Origin: a virus
Strand: one strand, 5' to 3'
Virus record (IMG/VR): IMGVR_UViG_3300043331_002800
Span: 1-53,746 of that record
DNA length: 53,746 nt
Shown here: piece after piece, positions 33,802 to 51,905 of the stretch
Layout: each line of letters begins with the position of its first letter
How positions within the stretch are numbered: the stretch's first letter is position 1
Position numbers and translations under genes: made by a program
The notes under the pieces: generated by a model
Told to the model about the DNA's origin: nothing
The model's input: the letters and a program-made list of their open reading frames with translations, nothing else
Databases searched by the model: none

Positions 33802-35676
33802 TCATGACAGGAACAGCTTCGACGATGCGACCGCAGCGCCGCGCGGCGTGTCTACCAGCTTGAGGGTCGCCAGCCGGCCCAACGGTTCCGAGAATCCGCC
33901 GCTCCGGAAGTTCGTGTAGCCCAGCGCGCGGGCGAGATCTTCGCGGCTCATGATGGTCGGGTACAGCTCGATGAGCTTCGCCAGGATGCGCTGCTCTGGA
34001 CCCGGAAGCACGCCCATGATGCGCGCCTGCAGCGCGTCGGAGGTGGTCGGGGTCGCCGCGGCATCGGCGTGCGCGCGGCCGTCGTCGGTCAGGTCAATGA
34101 CGCCAGCGATCGGCGACGCGGCGTAGCCGCCGGCAATCAGTCGGCCGAGGGGTTCCGAAAAGCCACCCGACCGGTAATTGGTGTACCCGGCCATCAGGGC
34201 GAGCTGCTGGCGATCGACAGGCGTGAGGCCCAGGGCCTCGAGCTCGGCCAGGCCGTTCAGAATCTTCTGCTCCGGCCCGGCCAAGTGGCCGTTCGAGGAC
34301 GGCGCCGGACCCGTCACCACCCGCCTTATAACATAAGGCGCCTGGCGAACCGGGCGTTGAACGCCGGTGTCCGGTCGTGGTGTCGGCCTGACGGTCGATG
34401 GAACAACTGCATCGACCTTGTCGAGAATCCGCTGCACGCGCGTGCCGGACAGCCGCTCAATGAACAGCGCCCGTCGCTTCTCGACATCGGCGGACCACCG
34501 CTCGCCGGCCGCATCAATCTCAGCCTTGGCCCGGTCCGCGATCGACTGCAGCGTCGCATCGGCGCGGTCGGCGATGTAGGTCTTGAATCCGGCGAGTTCC
34601 TCGCGTACAGACTTCAGCAGCTCGCGGTCGGCGCCTGTCAGAACCGGGACGTCCTTCGGCTTGCCCGCCGGCGCCGGCGTCGCGGCCGCGCGGGCCAGCT
34701 CCTGCTCGGCCTTGGCTTTCTCGGCCTTCAGCTGCGCGATCTGTTTCTTGAGTTCCTTCGGGTCATCGGCCTTGGCCCGCTCGATCGCGTCCTGCATCTT
34801 CGTCTTCAGCGTGTCCAGATCGGGCTGAGCCAGCCGCTTCGGTTCGGTCTTGCGCTGGCCGATCTTGGGAGTCGCGCTCGAGTCGAACGTTTCGCGCCGG
34901 CGGATGCGGTGAACGCCGAAGAGTTTCAGATCCGGATGGCCGCTCGCGACGATGGCCGTGCCCGTCTGGAGGCCGGCGAGCTGGCCCATGACCTCGTCCC
35001 GCTGCGCTTTCGTGGCATTCGCCTCGAGCCAGTCCTTGATCCGGTCCTGGTCGAGAGGGCCCGGCGTGCGAAACGCCACGAGGACGTCACAGAGCTCGGA
35101 GACTTCCTTGTTCAGCCCGGAGCCGCGCTGCGTGAAGAGCACGGGACCGATCCCATGCTTTCGGCCGAGCTTCACGAGATCCTCGACGGCCCCGAGACAC
35201 TTCGCGGCGTCCGGGTCGATCGGGCGCTGTGGCGCATACCGCTGCGCCTCATCGAGGAGCAGAAGCAACGGGTCGCGGTTCTTGTCGTACAGCCGTTCGA
35301 AGAACGCCGCCAGGAAGCGCACCTGTTTCCCTTTCGAGAAGTACTCGAGATCGAGGATGGCCGGCTGCTCGAGCGCGGCGATCGTCTCGCCGATGAATGC
35401 GCCAGCGCCGTCCTCCAGCGGCAGGTCGGCGTGGTCGCCGCCGAAGATCACGACCGGCAGACCGGCGCCTGTGCCGGCGGCCGTGCTCTTCAGCCCGTAC
35501 CAGTCCCCTTTCAGGTCGATGGCGCAAAACCGCTGTTTGGCCTTGGCGGCTTCCTCGGCCGCGACGGACCCGAACGTGGTCTTGCCGGACCCGCGCGCAC
35601 CGTACACCACCGTCGCGAGCGTCAGCCACTCGAGCGGCAGCGTGAGGTCGTCGGAAATCCTGAGCGTTTTCAACAT
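33802..35676 (-). CDS. HerA/FtsK-like ATPase with duplicated C-terminal winged helices
   Basis: A 624-residue protein. Walker A is GARGSGKTT (26-34), Walker B is LLLLLDEAQRYAPQ (DE at 142-143), and a conserved FTQRGS follows near 181, typical of HerA-like ATPases. Residues about 290-335 are a coiled coil. Then come two homologous repeats, at 467-530 and 559-620, each with GPEQ-IL, GYTN-RSGGFSEPLGRL, likely winged helices. It probably acts on DNA; which process is not shown. Confidence 0.75.
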   Translation of the reverse strand: MLKTLRISDDLTLPLEWLTLATVVYGARGSGKTTFGSVAAEEAAKAKQRFCAIDLKGDWYGLKSTAAGTGAGLPVVIFGGDHADLPLEDGAGAFIGETIAALEQPAILDLEYFSKGKQVRFLAAFFERLYDKNRDPLLLLLDEAQRYAPQRPIDPDAAKCLGAVEDLVKLGRKHGIGPVLFTQRGSGLNKEVSELCDVLVAFRTPGPLDQDRIKDWLEANATKAQRDEVMGQLAGLQTGTAIVASGHPDLKLFGVHRIRRRETFDSSATPKIGQRKTEPKRLAQPDLDTLKTKMQDAIERAKADDPKELKKQIAQLKAEKAKAEQELARAAATPAPAGKPKDVPVLTGADRELLKSVREELAGFKTYIADRADATLQSIADRAKAEIDAAGERWSADVEKRRALFIERLSGTRVQRILDKVDAVVPSTVRPTPRPDTGVQRPVRQAPYVIRRVVTGPAPSSNGHLAGPEQKILNGLAELEALGLTPVDRQQLALMAGYTNYRSGGFSEPLGRLIAGGYAASPIAGVIDLTDDGRAHADAAATPTTSDALQARIMGVLPGPEQRILAKLIELYPTIMSREDLARALGYTNFRSGGFSEPLGRLATLKLVDTPRGAAVASSKLFLS

Positions 35677-40432: not shown

Positions 40433-40716
40433 GACGTCGGCTTCGCCTCGCTGTGCTCGGCCGGGCAGGTGCAGGTCGCGCAGTGCCGGCCGGGCGTCAA
40501 GAGTTCAATCGCGCGTTCTCGGTTCGGCCGCCGGCGGACATAGCCCTTTCGGATGAGGGTGTCGATGTGCTTCCAGGCCGTGGAGATCGCGTGCACCGGT
40601 GGCACGAGACCGTCGCAGATCTCCTGAATCGTCGGCGAGACGCCGTTCGTGCGAACGGTGGCCTGGATGAAGTCCAACACCTCACGCTGGCGCGGGGTGA
40701 GCGGCTGCAGCGTCAT
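40429..40716 (-). CDS. LexA-type DNA-binding domain without peptidase
   Basis: A 95-residue protein. Residues 1-70 match the LexA winged helix: LTPRQREVLDFIQATVRTNG, SPTIQEICDGL, HIDTLIRKGYVRRRP. The S24 cleavage and peptidase domain is absent; instead there is CATCTCPAEHSE. It could bind SOS-type boxes without self-cleavage, acting as a modulator of the host or phage SOS response. ATGA overlaps at both ends. Confidence 0.8.
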   Translation of the reverse strand: MTLQPLTPRQREVLDFIQATVRTNGVSPTIQEICDGLVPPVHAISTAWKHIDTLIRKGYVRRRPNRERAIELLTPGRHCATCTCPAEHSEAKPTS

Positions 40717-41978
40717 GCGGAGGCCTCGACCGCCGCGAGGCGCCTGGTCGTGCCGATCGCGACGTATTCCTCGCTCAGTTCAATCCCGATGAAGGCGCGA
40801 CCGTGCTTGTCGGCGACGAGCCCGGTCGTACCGGCGCCGGCGAACGGATCCAGCACCGTGCACGGTTCAATCTCGCGGAGCGTGTGCCGACAGGTGGGTT
40901 TCCAGCCGACTGTGATGCGCTCGCGCATCCCTTCAAGGATTCGCTTCTTGACCTCACTCGGGTCTTGCGCGCCGGCGGCGTCGTACGCCTTCCTGGCCTT
41001 GCCGTGGTACTGACCGTCGCGGTCGGCGCCGCCGACTTTCTTCTGCTCGACGAGCTCAGCACCCTTCTGGATGATCCGAAGGAATGGCGCGCCGCAGATC
41101 GAACAGCAACCATACTCGGACGTGCCTGCGAGAATGCAGGGCTCCACCAGCCGTGGCGGGAAGGTCGCGAAGTGCGCGCCGGGAAACCGCGCTGTCGACA
41201 ACGTCCATACTGATCGGCGATTCCGGCCTCCACCGGCTTTCCACGGCACCGAGAATCCCTGATGGGCGTTCTTGAGGCGTGGATTGCCGCCGTGATCGAC
41301 GCGGTGCTTGCGCGTCTTGTTTCCCGCCGACTGACCTGAATCACCCTCGCGGATCGCGTCGGCGTCGTAAAAGTAGTTCTCGCTCTTCGCGAAGAGGAAC
41401 AGGTATTCGTGGGATTTTGTCGGCCGGTCCTTGATGGACTCCGGCATCGGGTTGGTTTTCGCCCAGATGACATCGCAGCGCAGATACCAGCCCGCTTCGC
41501 GGAGCGCGAATGCGACCGTCCAGGGGATCCCGACGAGATCCTTCGGCTTGATGCCAGGCGCGACTTTATGGGCGACGTCGCCGCGAGGCAGTCGATCGCG
41601 ACGGAACGAGGACCGGCAACCGATGCGCTGGCCGGCGAGCTTGCTCTGCTCCTGACCTTGCTTCGACCCTTCAAGGCCTGACTTCCCACCGACATCCCCG
41701 CCGCGGCTGCCGGCCGCATAGCAGTCGCCGAGGTTTAACCAGAGCGTGCCATCGTCACGCAGCACGCGGTGGACTTCCGTAAAGACCTCGACCAGGTGTG
41801 CGACATAGCGATCAGGCGTTGGCTCCAGGCCGAGACAGCCGCGCCACCCATCGCCCCATTCAGTCTCTGGGACCGAATAATCGCGGAGCGACCAGTACGG
41901 CGGCGAGGTCACGACGCAGTGGACGGAGGCCTCCGGCAGCCGCGGCAGCACGTCGAGGACGTGGCCCTGCAGAATCAC
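40713..41978 (-). CDS. beta-class site-specific DNA methyltransferase (TSPPYW)
   Basis: A 421-residue enzyme with TSPPYWSLRDY at about 24-34 and DPFAGAGTTG at about 377-386, so the catalytic motif comes before the SAM motif (beta order). TSPPYW is typical of N4-cytosine enzymes, though N6-adenine cannot be excluded. I start at the GTG at 41978, preceded by AAGAGGAAACG and overlapping the upstream stop as GTGA; a TTG 11 codons earlier is less likely. No restriction partner is seen. Confidence 0.85.
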   Translation of the reverse strand: MILQGHVLDVLPRLPEASVHCVVTSPPYWSLRDYSVPETEWGDGWRGCLGLEPTPDRYVAHLVEVFTEVHRVLRDDGTLWLNLGDCYAAGSRGGDVGGKSGLEGSKQGQEQSKLAGQRIGCRSSFRRDRLPRGDVAHKVAPGIKPKDLVGIPWTVAFALREAGWYLRCDVIWAKTNPMPESIKDRPTKSHEYLFLFAKSENYFYDADAIREGDSGQSAGNKTRKHRVDHGGNPRLKNAHQGFSVPWKAGGGRNRRSVWTLSTARFPGAHFATFPPRLVEPCILAGTSEYGCCSICGAPFLRIIQKGAELVEQKKVGGADRDGQYHGKARKAYDAAGAQDPSEVKKRILEGMRERITVGWKPTCRHTLREIEPCTVLDPFAGAGTTGLVADKHGRAFIGIELSEEYVAIGTTRRLAAVEASA

Positions 41979-42238
41979 CGTTTCCTCTTGAACTGCTGAC
42001 GGCCTGGACAAGTCGACCAGTGCACGGTCGATGCGTCGACGGTGAGCAGCGTCCGATCGGTGAAGACTTCAGTCTCGGTGACGATGGGCTCTGGCTTCGC
42101 GTCGAAGCACATGAACTTCGAACTCTTCACGAGCTGCGCCCACCAGATGCGCTTCCGGCAGAGCTTCGATCGGCAGATGTCGGCCCGCACCGTATCGGCC
42201 CAGATCTTCAGCGTCCGCTGGGCGGCGACGGTCGTCAC
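41975..42238 (-). CDS. small zinc-binding-type protein
   Basis: An 87-residue protein containing ICRSKLCRKRIWWAQLVKSSKF and CFDAKPEP. This matches, with variation, the short phage protein family that reads C--C---I-W-----GK-MP-D--P; here the usual MP is MC. The start is the GTG at 42238, overlapping the ParB stop. Function unknown. Confidence 0.7.
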   Translation of the reverse strand: MTTVAAQRTLKIWADTVRADICRSKLCRKRIWWAQLVKSSKFMCFDAKPEPIVTETEVFTDRTLLTVDASTVHWSTCPGRQQFKRKR

Positions 42239-43773
42239 GGTTCGGCGTCCTCTGGATCGCCGCCGTAGTCGCCGATCCATTCGCCCAGCGGGATCTCGTC
42301 CGTTGACACCATCACATAGGTGCCGGGTAGCTGGGCCAACCATTCGCGCGCCTTCGCGCCGATCTGATCGCCGTCCCGGTGCGCGTAGTAGGCGACGTCG
42401 AGTTGGACGGGCTCGGAGTGGTCGTTCTCCGGGTCATCGTCGCGGAGCCAATCGAGCCGATAGACCGGGACCATCCGATCGTCGATCTCGGGCGCCTGAG
42501 ATTCGTCAGTGGCTGTCGGCGGGTGATGCGCGCCCATGACGAGCGCGGCGCTGAACTTGATCCCCGCGACGTGCTTCCCGAAGGCCGGCAGCGCGACCTT
42601 GAGCAGGTGTTCCCATGCCTCCTGTTCGATGTTGGCCTTGCGGTTCTCTTCCTCCTGGCGCTTCCAGTAAGCGTCACGTGTGAATGTCTCGGTCTTGCCC
42701 GCCCTGGCTTGCTTCTTCGCGACGGGCCAATGCTTCGGGCAGCTCTTCTTCGTGCAGACGTCCAGCACGCGGGCGGGCCCGCCGTGCGTGATGACGCCGC
42801 GGACCGTGTACTCGCACCGGGCGGCCGGGTTTTTGACCTCGCGCCACTTCGAGGGGGTGAGCGGAATGTGATCGGTCTTGCCGGCGCCGAGACGCATCCG
42901 CGCCATCGGATCGTCGGAGAGCAGCACCATCGTCGACGTCGCCTCGTCGATGGCGCGCTGGACGTCCGCCTCGGTGTCGTCCCCGACCACCGGCGCGACC
43001 GGTTCCTCGATCGCCGCCGCGAGCTCGGGCTGGAAGTGCCGCGTGTCCTCCGAGGTCGGATCGAAGGCCGACTTCGTCCGGATGAACTTCTCCAGCTCGT
43101 TCAACGGCCGCAGATCTTCCCGCTGCGGGATCCATTCGTCGCCGTACTCGAGGAGCGGCGACCGCCGCCAGACGACGCCATTCTCGGGATGGGCGGCTTG
43201 CTGACGGAGCTTCAGCGGCAAGCGCAGCAATCGTTCCGCGTGGCCGATCGACAGCCGATCCTCGGCCAGGGCCGTCCGGAGGGTGTCGTCCAGCTCGAGG
43301 AGCTTCAGCCGGCGGTAGACATGCGATTCGGTCTGTCCGGTGCGCCGGGCGATCGCCGCATTCGTGTAGATCCGTTTGTCGGTCCGCTGCAGTGTCGCGT
43401 ACGCCTCGGCTTCGTCGAGCGGGTGCATGTCCTGGCGCTGCAGGTTTTCCGAGAGGGCCACCTCGAGGGCCTCGGCGTCGGTCAGGGCCTTGACCACGCA
43501 CGAGGCGGACGTCAGCCCCGCGCCGCGTGCCGCGCGGAGGCGCCGGCTGCCGGCGACAATCTCGAAGAGGCCGTCATCGATCGGCCGCACGATCATCGGC
43601 TCGAGGAGGCCTTTCTCGCGGATGGAGGCTGTGAGCTCCTCGAGTGTGCCCGCGTCGTAGTGCTTGCGCGGATTCCACGTGTTCTCCTGGATGAAGTCGA
43701 GACTGATCGATCGGTACTCGTCAGGCGTCCGCGCACGCGGGGCCTCAGCAACAGCAGCGGCAGATCGGGCCAT
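42235..43773 (-). CDS. ParB-like protein
   Basis: A 512-residue protein. The ParB N-terminal region is complete: WNPRKHYDAGTLEELTASI, IVRPIDDGLFEIVAGSRRLRAARGAG, and ALSENLQRQDMHPLDEAEAY. A KorB-like helix-turn-helix follows (AIARRTGQTESHVYRRLKLL). The C-terminal 250 residues are phage-specific, with a C-x4-C and then acidic segments. No ParA is seen, so it is more likely a regulator or DNA-modifying partner than a partition protein. ATG at 43773 has AAGGAG upstream, with seven C residues between. Confidence 0.85.
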   Translation of the reverse strand: MARSAAAVAEAPRARTPDEYRSISLDFIQENTWNPRKHYDAGTLEELTASIREKGLLEPMIVRPIDDGLFEIVAGSRRLRAARGAGLTSASCVVKALTDAEALEVALSENLQRQDMHPLDEAEAYATLQRTDKRIYTNAAIARRTGQTESHVYRRLKLLELDDTLRTALAEDRLSIGHAERLLRLPLKLRQQAAHPENGVVWRRSPLLEYGDEWIPQREDLRPLNELEKFIRTKSAFDPTSEDTRHFQPELAAAIEEPVAPVVGDDTEADVQRAIDEATSTMVLLSDDPMARMRLGAGKTDHIPLTPSKWREVKNPAARCEYTVRGVITHGGPARVLDVCTKKSCPKHWPVAKKQARAGKTETFTRDAYWKRQEEENRKANIEQEAWEHLLKVALPAFGKHVAGIKFSAALVMGAHHPPTATDESQAPEIDDRMVPVYRLDWLRDDDPENDHSEPVQLDVAYYAHRDGDQIGAKAREWLAQLPGTYVMVSTDEIPLGEWIGDYGGDPEDAEP

Positions 43774-44074: not shown

Positions 44075-44604
44075 TCGACCCTCCGGAACGGGACGCGCGG
44101 TAGATCGGCCTTGAGGTACAGCGGATGCTTCGGCGATCCATTGAAGGTCTGCCCGAGGCACTCGAGCGTGAGGCCTGCCTGAACGACGGCGCGTTCGACG
44201 ACGGCGACGCGCGCAAGGAACCGCGGCCCGATGAGCTGCCCCCACGCAGCGACGACCGTCGAGGCGTGGGCGACCGCGCCGGCGATCGTCGCGTCATTCC
44301 TCGGGCCGACCGGGTCGGGATGGTCGAAGACGACGTACGCCTGCGGCGACTGAATCGCGTAGAGGTTCACGACATCGAACCCGCCGAACCCCCAGGACAC
44401 GGAAAAGTCCAGGCACCGGGCGAGCGTCCGATCGTCCTGGCGGTGGTCGCCGGTGCTCGGATTGAACATGGCCCAGAGCACCCGGGCCTTCGCCGGCGCC
44501 CAGGTTCGCCACAGCAGATAGCGGTACGGCCCTTCGATCACGGCGCCGCGCTCGATGCCGTCGCCGAAGAGCGCGGGCTGATACGCCGTCCTGGCCGGCC
44601 TCAT
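44071..44604 (-). CDS. DUF1643 family protein
   Basis: A 177-residue protein with the full DUF1643 signature: YRYLLWRTWAPAKARVLWAM, FNPSTGDHRQDDRTLARC, FSVSWGFGGFDVVNLYA, and HPDPVGPRND. Length is normal. It is widespread in phages and bacteria; the biochemical activity is not established. Overlaps both neighbours by 4 nt. Confidence 0.85.
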   Translation of the reverse strand: MRPARTAYQPALFGDGIERGAVIEGPYRYLLWRTWAPAKARVLWAMFNPSTGDHRQDDRTLARCLDFSVSWGFGGFDVVNLYAIQSPQAYVVFDHPDPVGPRNDATIAGAVAHASTVVAAWGQLIGPRFLARVAVVERAVVQAGLTLECLGQTFNGSPKHPLYLKADLPRVPFRRVE

Positions 44605-45428
44605 CGGTACCGCCCGCCCATGGCCATCCGATCGACGCGCGCCAACCGCGCCCGTCCGTGCTCGGTCTGGAGTTGCCTGGCGCGCTGGGCAATCGCCCCG
44701 TCGACGATCACGGAGAGTTCGCGCGTGTGTTGCCAGGTCGCGCCGAGTTTCGTCGCAATGCCCTTGAGGTGGTTGAGCAGCTCGGCCGGATTGACGCCGT
44801 GCGCGTCGATGAAGGGCGCCCCCTGTGCCATTGCCAGGTGCGCCGCCTTGTAGAGATGGCCCTTGACATTCCAGACCGAGAACGCCATCCGCGCGGGTCG
44901 GGCGCGCGCTGGCAGCGCGCCCTGATCTTTCTGCTTTTGATCTTGATCTTCAGAAGCAAAAGCAAGAGCAAAAGCAAGGCATTGCAAAAGGGTCCGGTTT
45001 GCATATGCAAACCGCCGATTGAGCTCATGCAAACGCGCACGCTCGGCCGCCCACCGAGCGTCAGCCGCCTCCCGTCTGACCCGACTGTTCTTCTGCTGTT
45101 TGGCTCGCTCCCGCTCTTGGCGCGGGTTCCGGCGCTTGCCGTCCGGCCCCTGCGGAAAGAGCGGGTCGAGCTTCATCCAGATCTGCTGAAACTTCTTTTT
45201 CGACGTGACCTTACAGAGCGGCTGGACCTCATCGAGGTCTTCCGGCAGGCCGTCCTCGAGCCACGAATGGTCGAGTAGCCGCCGATAGATGCCCTCGACC
45301 TCATTGGTCATCCGCTGCATTCGGACATCGCTCAGGGCGTCCTTCGGATACCACTGGTAGGCCGGCGACTTCTCCGGCTCACGCGAGATGTGTGTCTTGA
45401 CTGGGGGAAGCCCAGGTTGTTCGTGCAC
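44601..45428 (-). CDS. replication protein, DUF1376, phage O-like
   Basis: A 275-residue protein. The N-terminal DUF1376 region is clear: SPAYQWYPKDALSDVRMQRM, GIYRRLLDHSWLEDGLPEDLDEV, then KFQQIWMKLDPLFP. A basic helix (RERAKQQKNSRVRREAADARW) follows, then a low-complexity stretch encoded by an origin-like DNA segment, and a helical C-terminal region. DUF1376 proteins occupy the place of the replication initiator in many phages. The GTG at 45428 has AAGGA upstream. Confidence 0.75.
   Translation of the reverse strand: MHEQPGLPPVKTHISREPEKSPAYQWYPKDALSDVRMQRMTNEVEGIYRRLLDHSWLEDGLPEDLDEVQPLCKVTSKKKFQQIWMKLDPLFPQGPDGKRRNPRQERERAKQQKNSRVRREAADARWAAERARLHELNRRFAYANRTLLQCLAFALAFASEDQDQKQKDQGALPARARPARMAFSVWNVKGHLYKAAHLAMAQGAPFIDAHGVNPAELLNHLKGIATKLGATWQHTRELSVIVDGAIAQRARQLQTEHGRARLARVDRMAMGGRYR
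44955..45033. other. candidate replication origin within the DUF1376 gene
   Basis: Two perfect 12-bp direct repeats, AGCAAAAGCAAG, lie at 44955-44978. TGCAAA occurs at 44983, 45006 and 45028, spaced 23 and 22 bp, and as its complement at 44998. A perfect 20-bp palindrome, CGGTTTGCATATGCAAACCG, spans 44995-45014. The segment is much less GC-rich than its surroundings. Lambda carries its origin within gene O in a similar way. Confidence 0.6.
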
Positions 45429-51254: not shown

Positions 51255-51466
51255 CAGGACGCCGCCTGCCGATCAGTGAGTTCGGTGAACAGGTCCTCTT
51301 CTGTGACCTTGAGTTCCTTCGCGAACTTCGCGCGGATTTCGGCCGGAGGAATCCAGCCGGTCTTCTCGATCTTGCTGATGTCGCTCTGCGGCACGCCGAC
51401 GCGCTTGGCCAGCTCGACCTGCGTCAACTCCGCCTTCTGGCGGGCGGCCCAGAACTGAGGGTTCAT
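51254..51466 (-). CDS. XRE-family regulator, Cro-like
   Basis: A 70-residue protein with FWAARQKAELTQVELAKRVGVPQSDISKIEKTG, a clear helix-turn-helix, then a short C-terminal helix. It is the first gene of the minus-strand operon and divergent from the other XRE gene. No SD precedes its ATG, and a promoter lies so close that the message would be almost leaderless. Probably the Cro-like half of the switch, though a short CI is not excluded. Confidence 0.8.
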   Translation of the reverse strand: MNPQFWAARQKAELTQVELAKRVGVPQSDISKIEKTGWIPPAEIRAKFAKELKVTEEDLFTELTDRQAAS

Positions 51467-51475
51467 GGGTTAGAG

Positions 51476-51494
51476 AGTATAGATAATCTAGACT
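51476..51494. promoter_or_regulatory. near-palindromic operator candidate
   Basis: The 19 bp read AGT-N-TAGAT-N-ATCTA-N-ACT, perfect except for the three N positions. It covers the -10 box and much of the spacer of the candidate early promoter, the place expected for a repressor binding site. Confidence 0.6.
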
Positions 51495-51502
51495 ATTGTC
51501 AA
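51476..51502 (-). promoter_or_regulatory. candidate early promoter for the minus-strand operon
   Basis: TTGACA (plus-strand positions 51502-51497) and TATACT (51481-51476) match sigma-70 boxes at 6/6 and 5/6 positions, with a 15-bp spacer, which is short. The likely start point would be only 2-4 nt before the ATG at 51466. Confidence 0.6.
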
Positions 51503-51551
51503 CATTTAATCTGTTCGAATGTTATGGACTGTCTAAATAATTGCGTTATTT
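51501..51551. promoter_or_regulatory. two further inverted repeats in the switch region
   Basis: AACATT at 51501-51506 pairs with AATGTT at 51518-51523, and AAATAA at 51535-51540 pairs with TTATTT at 51546-51551. Both lie in the AT-rich gap between the divergent XRE genes, so they may be operators or part of the promoter for the plus-strand regulator. They differ in sequence from the 19-bp site. Confidence 0.45.
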
Positions 51552-51563
51552 GAGGTTATCGGG

Positions 51564-51905
51564 ATGATCCGGAGCGTGACCTACGGCGAACGATTCGCAC
51601 AACTCCGGCTACGGCTCGGTCTGACCCCTGCGCAATTAGCCCATCGGCTCTTTGGCGATGCCGAACGGCGGGCTAATGTCTCGGCGATCGAACAGACCGC
51701 AGGCCGGATTCCGACACCGAAGATCGTGCGGAAACACGCCGAGGTCTTGAGTTGCGACGTGAGCGAGCTCGTGGTGCCCGTGGACGATACCTGGCTCGAT
51801 CGCGCCCGCCGCGGCGAGTTCGATACTTCACCGAGGGAGGCGCATATGCGAGGATCGCCCCTGGAACCTCGGACCGCCAGGAGACGGCGCGCAAACTCGA
51901 GCTAG
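51564..51905 (+). CDS. XRE-family regulator, divergent (CI-side candidate)
   Basis: A 113-residue protein with RFAQLRLRLGLTPAQLAHRLFGDAERRANVSAIEQT, a helix-turn-helix of the XRE type, then a short helical domain (IVRKHAEVLSCDVSELVV). It lacks a peptidase or dimerisation domain of usual CI size, and the final 25 residues look unselected. The ATG at 51564 has a TGAGGTTATCGGG lead. Divergent arrangement suggests it maintains lysogeny. After it, 51906-52094 holds no gene I can support. Confidence 0.7.
   Translation: MIRSVTYGERFAQLRLRLGLTPAQLAHRLFGDAERRANVSAIEQTAGRIPTPKIVRKHAEVLSCDVSELVVPVDDTWLDRARRGEFDTSPREAHMRGSPLEPRTARRRRANSS

Follow-up and report, generated by a model that had tools for sequence, protein, structure and literature searches.

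A putative replication origin within the linker-coding part of a DUF1376-like initiator gene of a phage

What is an A+T-rich, repeat-laden segment doing in the middle of a GC-rich phage gene? The question is raised by positions 44930-45040 of the IMG/VR virus record IMGVR_UViG_3300043331_002800, whose 53,746 bases (hereafter the window) were searched whole for G+C content, the motif TGCAAA and palindromes. The segment lies in a gene whose product resembles proteins with the domain DUF1376, and an earlier note, made from the sequence alone, had described it as origin-like iterons comparable to those of lambda gene O, with DNA function constraining a low-complexity protein sequence. Our analysis supports this reading: judged from sequence, 44930-45040 is very probably a phage replication origin inside its own initiator gene, in the part that encodes the linker, and by analogy its mode of working is best read as like that of ori-lambda, SPP1 oriL and the pSK41 rep origin. 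The observations behind it are the anatomy of the segment, a constraint on the DNA beyond that on the protein, the same order of elements in relatives, and the covariation of repeat type with the N-terminal domain (N domain) of the protein.

The segment has a G+C content of 46.8%, compared with about 65% in the window as a whole, in agreement with the earlier note, and a 111-bp stretch starting at 44923 (43% G+C) is the second lowest of the window, after the region at 51449. That lowest stretch (51449-51559, 34% G+C) lies just upstream of a helix-turn-helix gene (51564-51905) and is probably a regulatory switch region. TGCAAA starts on the plus strand at 44983, 45006 and 45028, which gives the described spacings of about two helical turns (23 and 22 bp), and four of the nine copies found on both strands of the window are located in the segment (Table 1). 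The perfect 20-bp palindrome is likewise present as described, and is the window's only perfect palindrome longer than 14 bp. The two perfect 12-bp repeats also listed by the note are indeed there, as AGCAAAAGCAAG twice in tandem (44955-44978), but they fall within the hexamer tract and more plausibly represent a hexamer array of the unwinding type, (GCAARA)n, than iterons of the TGCAAA kind.

Table 1. Features of the putative origin and its host gene, in window coordinates (pLDDT, predicted local distance difference test score)
Feature	Position	Strand	Remarks
DUF1376 initiator-like gene	44601..45428	minus	275 amino acids, GTG start; Pfam, PHROG and structure matches
N-terminal winged-helix-like domain, residues 28-100, presumed iteron-binding	45129..45347	minus	AlphaFold pLDDT mostly >90
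TGCAAA iteron-like unit 1, ATGCAAACG	45028..45033	plus	
TGCAAA iteron-like unit 2, palindrome right arm	45006..45011	plus	
TGCAAA iteron-like unit 3, inverted, palindrome left arm	44998..45003	minus	TTTGCA at 44998
TGCAAA iteron-like unit 4, TTGCAAAAG	44983..44988	plus	
Perfect 20-bp palindrome CGGTTTGCATATGCAAACCG	44995..45014	unstranded	two inverted TGCAAA copies
A+T-rich hexamer tract, presumed unwinding element	44931..44980	unstranded	3' of iterons in coding direction
Disordered linker, residues 160-182	44883..44951	minus	pLDDT about 51-53 in AlphaFold model
C-terminal helical domain, residues 185-271, presumed helicase/loader recruitment	44616..44876	minus	AlphaFold model

The gene was compared with a null model in which synonymous codons were shuffled within the gene, with protein and codon usage kept. 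TGCAAA was observed four times against 0.34 expected, and none of 5000 shuffles reached four. The low G+C of the segment (P < 2e-4), the palindrome (P = 0.02), the 12-bp repeat (P = 0.02) and the general repeat score of the gene (P = 0.01) also stood out from the same-protein shuffles. The protein sequence alone is not an explanation for the TGCAAA sites, the palindrome and the low G+C, and the proposed constraint by DNA function is borne out in these respects. These excesses also argue against the repeats being a by-product of a low-complexity linker grown by slippage, with no origin function, an explanation that we consider unlikely although the peptide has low complexity, the model shows a disordered linker and the hexamer periodicity of the window gene, taken alone, stays within the shuffle range.

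The motif was then found in homologous genes, as the earlier note had suggested checking. In the nearest relative, L002 (52% identity), a pair of TGCAAA sites is spaced 23 bp apart, and a near-palindrome GCAATGCA-CA-TGCATTGC (P = 0.01) and TTTGCTTTTGCTATTGCT are also present, all at the same place. L010 (45% identity) carries two sites of the TGCAAA type and a T-rich tract, and its palindrome is only a short one. In both, as in the window, TGCA-type repeats come first and T-rich hexamers second within this linker. More distant DUF1376 genes carry different repeats at the same place (e.g., GTCTAACCAATC, TCAACGACCGT and AGCAAATGC), followed by hexamer arrays of TCTTCA, CCAGAA, CCAAAA, GAAGAG or, in many relatives, GATACA. 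The near-palindrome of L002 also bears on the idea that the window's palindrome is a centromere-like site of the ParB-like protein encoded at 42235-43773, 0.8 kb downstream. ParB sites are palindromes, yet L002 retains its near-palindrome with no match to the ParB-like protein in its 10.7 kb, and the feature is found in DUF1376 genes generally; the idea is not supported, and we regard it as highly improbable.

Family-wide repeats were assessed in a panel of 144 DUF1376 genes, gathered by peptide patterns and biased to proteobacterial phages, of which 88 non-redundant genes were analysed with 200 codon shuffles each. The densest direct-repeat window was centred in the linker in 73 of the 88 genes, and repeated 8-mers covered 22% of the linker against 5% of the remaining gene. 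The repeat score reached P ≤ 0.05 in 57 of the 88 genes (33 of them with a score reached by no shuffle), in a test that is somewhat liberal because 17 of 120 control genes also exceeded their shuffles at this threshold. A repeat score of 45 was reached by 52 of the 88 DUF1376 genes compared to 6 of 120 other genes from the same loci, and strong hexamer periodicity was seen in 33 DUF1376 genes and in none of the 120 controls. Lambda gene O, used as a positive control, scored 91 over its annotated iterons, a value that no shuffle reached. Where repeats and a hexamer tract were both present, the repeats lay 5' of the tract in 37 of 43 genes. GATC (Dam site) was not enriched in the linkers (64 observed vs 79 expected).

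The same data bear on a role of the repeats as operators, by which the DUF1376 protein or another regulator would control transcription of the operon without any origin function. A winged-helix protein on inverted and direct repeats would fit an operator as well; however, the repeats lie about 400 bp inside the gene rather than at a promoter, and an operator has no need of the A+T-rich hexamer tract that follows them in most relatives, so we rate this account as quite improbable.

Repeat type followed the similarity of the N domain (partial rho 0.26, reached in 0 of 500 permutations) and showed no correlation with the similarity of the C-terminal domain (0.04, P = 0.098). Reading of the repeats by the N domain would produce such a pattern, and the pattern speaks against slippage; joint inheritance of neighbouring DNA could contribute to the correlation. 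For the putative origin, we infer the steps of binding, melting and helicase recruitment as follows. The winged-helix N domain of the DUF1376 protein would bind the TGCAAA iterons, which include the head-to-head pair in the palindrome; the protein-iteron complex would melt the A+T-rich hexamer tract next to it; and the C-terminal domain may help to bring the replicative helicase or its loader to the opened tract.

Within Asp-Thr runs of 26 DUF1376 genes, the codons were almost uniform (GAT 109/112; ACA 100/100) compared to those outside the runs (GAT 45%; ACA 22%). Similarly, at least 120 stretches of GATACA array were found in the viral collection against 8 of the synonymous GATACT array; both results are at odds with slippage as the source of the repeats. 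In DUF1376 genes, the GATACA array was read in the Asp-Thr frame in 72 of 72 cases. Among the matches listed, 117 of 119 GATACA-array loci had a frame of at least 90 codons across the array, and 18 of the 119 were DUF1376 genes. When 80 non-DUF1376 loci were examined by family matching, the hits were to the PHROG family 'DnaD-like helicase loader' (49), a 'replication initiation protein' family (48, a set overlapping the first) and Phage_rep_org_N (9); a minority of the array loci encoded unrelated low-complexity proteins. By these matches, GATACA arrays are mostly in predicted phage initiators, the majority of them non-DUF1376. In L163-L281, an (AGATAC)n array, mostly read as Asp-Thr repeats, stands in non-DUF1376 phage initiator genes directly after the predicted DNA-binding domain. 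Our search of open-licence papers found no description of this shared element. A short hexamer array in the linker after the DNA-binding domain, read in one frame, might tentatively be regarded as a general cassette for unwinding or helicase loading, which either spread through different initiator families or arose in them repeatedly, an idea we put at somewhat less than even odds; it covers GATACA in many phages and other hexamers elsewhere. The window's own hexamer type was rejected as a diagnostic by itself: its pattern gave 99 stretches, mostly in unrelated frames, and only one in a DUF1376 gene.

Other features of the linker were noted in single relatives. In L018, L019 and L145 (ydaU of Escherichia coli K-12), the hexamer array is succeeded by a C-rich tract (e.g., CCCCCCTACCCCCC), and runs of six C are present within the linker or immediately after it in 6 DUF1376 genes and elsewhere in 1. 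In L036 (3001-4089), L143, L226 and L255, the linker holds an additional GIY-YIG / T5orf172 / MUG113-like domain, with the DNA-binding domain on one side and the hexamer array on the other, as though a homing-type nuclease domain had inserted itself next to the putative origin.

The product of the window gene matched a PHROG primosomal protein (E 6e-8), and viral DUF1376 models matched it by structure (E 3e-6). It is a divergent DUF1376 relative rather than a formal member, linked to clear members by tblastn and by fold. Its AlphaFold model (mean pLDDT 85.7; predicted template modelling score 0.50) shows a long helix up to residue 164, and the putative origin DNA encodes the helix end and the linker, between the N domain and the C-terminal domain. 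The best PDB fold matches were weak (E 0.09), comprising initiator domains of the RepA_N type and then ORC winged helices. Entries 4pql and 4pt7, which carried the fold-search labels DNA-binding protein N domain and initiator, are RepA_N structures. No Pfam match to the RepA_N domain was found in the window protein and the fold similarity is weak; the RepA_N relation is an analogy, not membership. DnaT weakly matched the C-terminal part of the DUF1376 family profile (E 0.042). Searches with a six-member DUF1376 profile gave no match among PDB sequences and no relatives among GTDB genomes.

Origins inside genes are known from lambda (PMC3349717), SPP1 oriL (PMC6316719) and pSK41 (PMC5703833). 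In the window, too, repeats beyond the needs of the protein lie inside the initiator gene next to an A+T-rich region (44931-44980), and repeats are kept at the same place in L002 and L010, with a sequence that differs in distant relatives. The likeness to lambda gene O proposed by the earlier note holds as an analogy, and SPP1 oriL in gene 38 and the rep-internal origin of pSK41 are equally close comparisons. Lambda gene O, like the window, has iterons and then an A+T-rich stretch inside the initiator gene, placed between the DNA-binding and C-terminal parts of the initiator (PMC3349717), and its score in our repeat test is comparable to those of DUF1376 genes; unlike the window, it has four iterons of 18 bp and an A+T-rich stretch of 38 bp that lacks a hexamer array, belongs to another initiator family and is followed by gene P. 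SPP1 oriL, compared by description, has direct repeats and an A+T-rich unwinding element within gene 38, which encodes the origin-binding protein (PMC6316719), whereas SPP1 differs in having a second origin, oriR. In pSK41, the RepA_N prototype, the origin lies inside rep, the linker encoded by the origin is dispensable and the C domain is DnaD-like (PMC5703833). The pSK41 type is akin to the window in that initiator domains of the RepA_N type give the best, though weak, fold matches to the window protein; however, pSK41 is a plasmid rather than a phage, no sequence relationship was detected, and the fold E-value is only 0.09. A comparison from within the DUF1376 family is ydaU of the Rac prophage (E. 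coli K-12). The corresponding linker of this gene contains repeats, AGATACAGATAAAGATC and a C-rich tract, and the repeat sequences differ from those of the window. The Rac prophage has an active origin, oriJ (PMC3945230), and the link between ydaU and oriJ rests on their shared presence in Rac, not on a mapped position.

Several results weigh against an origin at this site. The Pfam match of the window protein to PF07120 (E 1.5e-4; 22.5 bits) is below the gathering cut-off of 30.1, the hexamer periodicity of the window gene alone is unexceptional (P = 0.32), and L018, L021 and L062 are among the DUF1376 genes without repeats by the repeat score. The window proteins that were scanned included none recognisable as a replicative helicase or loader. 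The GC-skew check proposed in the earlier note did not favour the site, with no extremum near it and the closest detrended one 13 kb off; skew is hardly informative in the window because it follows gene orientation. For five named phage genomes, the site and its closest detrended extremum were 0.2-4.5 kb apart, which is suggestive, with gene orientation as a confounder.

The gene neighbourhood varies among these phages. The DUF1376 gene adjoins a DnaB-like helicase or loader gene in several named phages, and ydaU stands before ydaV in Rac, while the neighbours in the window are a DUF1643 gene and the ParB-like gene. The latter and an N6/N4 DNA methyltransferase gene (40713-42011) follow the initiator gene downstream, at a place that a helicase or loader takes in several other DUF1376 phages. 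An ATPase weakly similar to HerA-like helicases is encoded at 33802-35676. Packaging or recombination sites also have repeats and palindromes, yet such a role for the segment is very improbable, given that its position inside the initiator gene is common to many phages and that the integrase gene is about 7.5 kb off, at the window end.

Our search found no paper combining DUF1376 with 'origin of replication', and the literature on in-gene phage origins gave lambda and SPP1, not DUF1376, which is still a domain of unknown function though widespread in phages and prophages. The reading of 44930-45040 as an in-gene origin would predict the replication start site of DUF1376 phages, and would account for the odd dipeptide repeats of DUF1376 proteins as a side effect of DNA function. 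Origins in uncultured phages may thereby become traceable by sequence, through GATACA-type arrays that follow a winged-helix domain.
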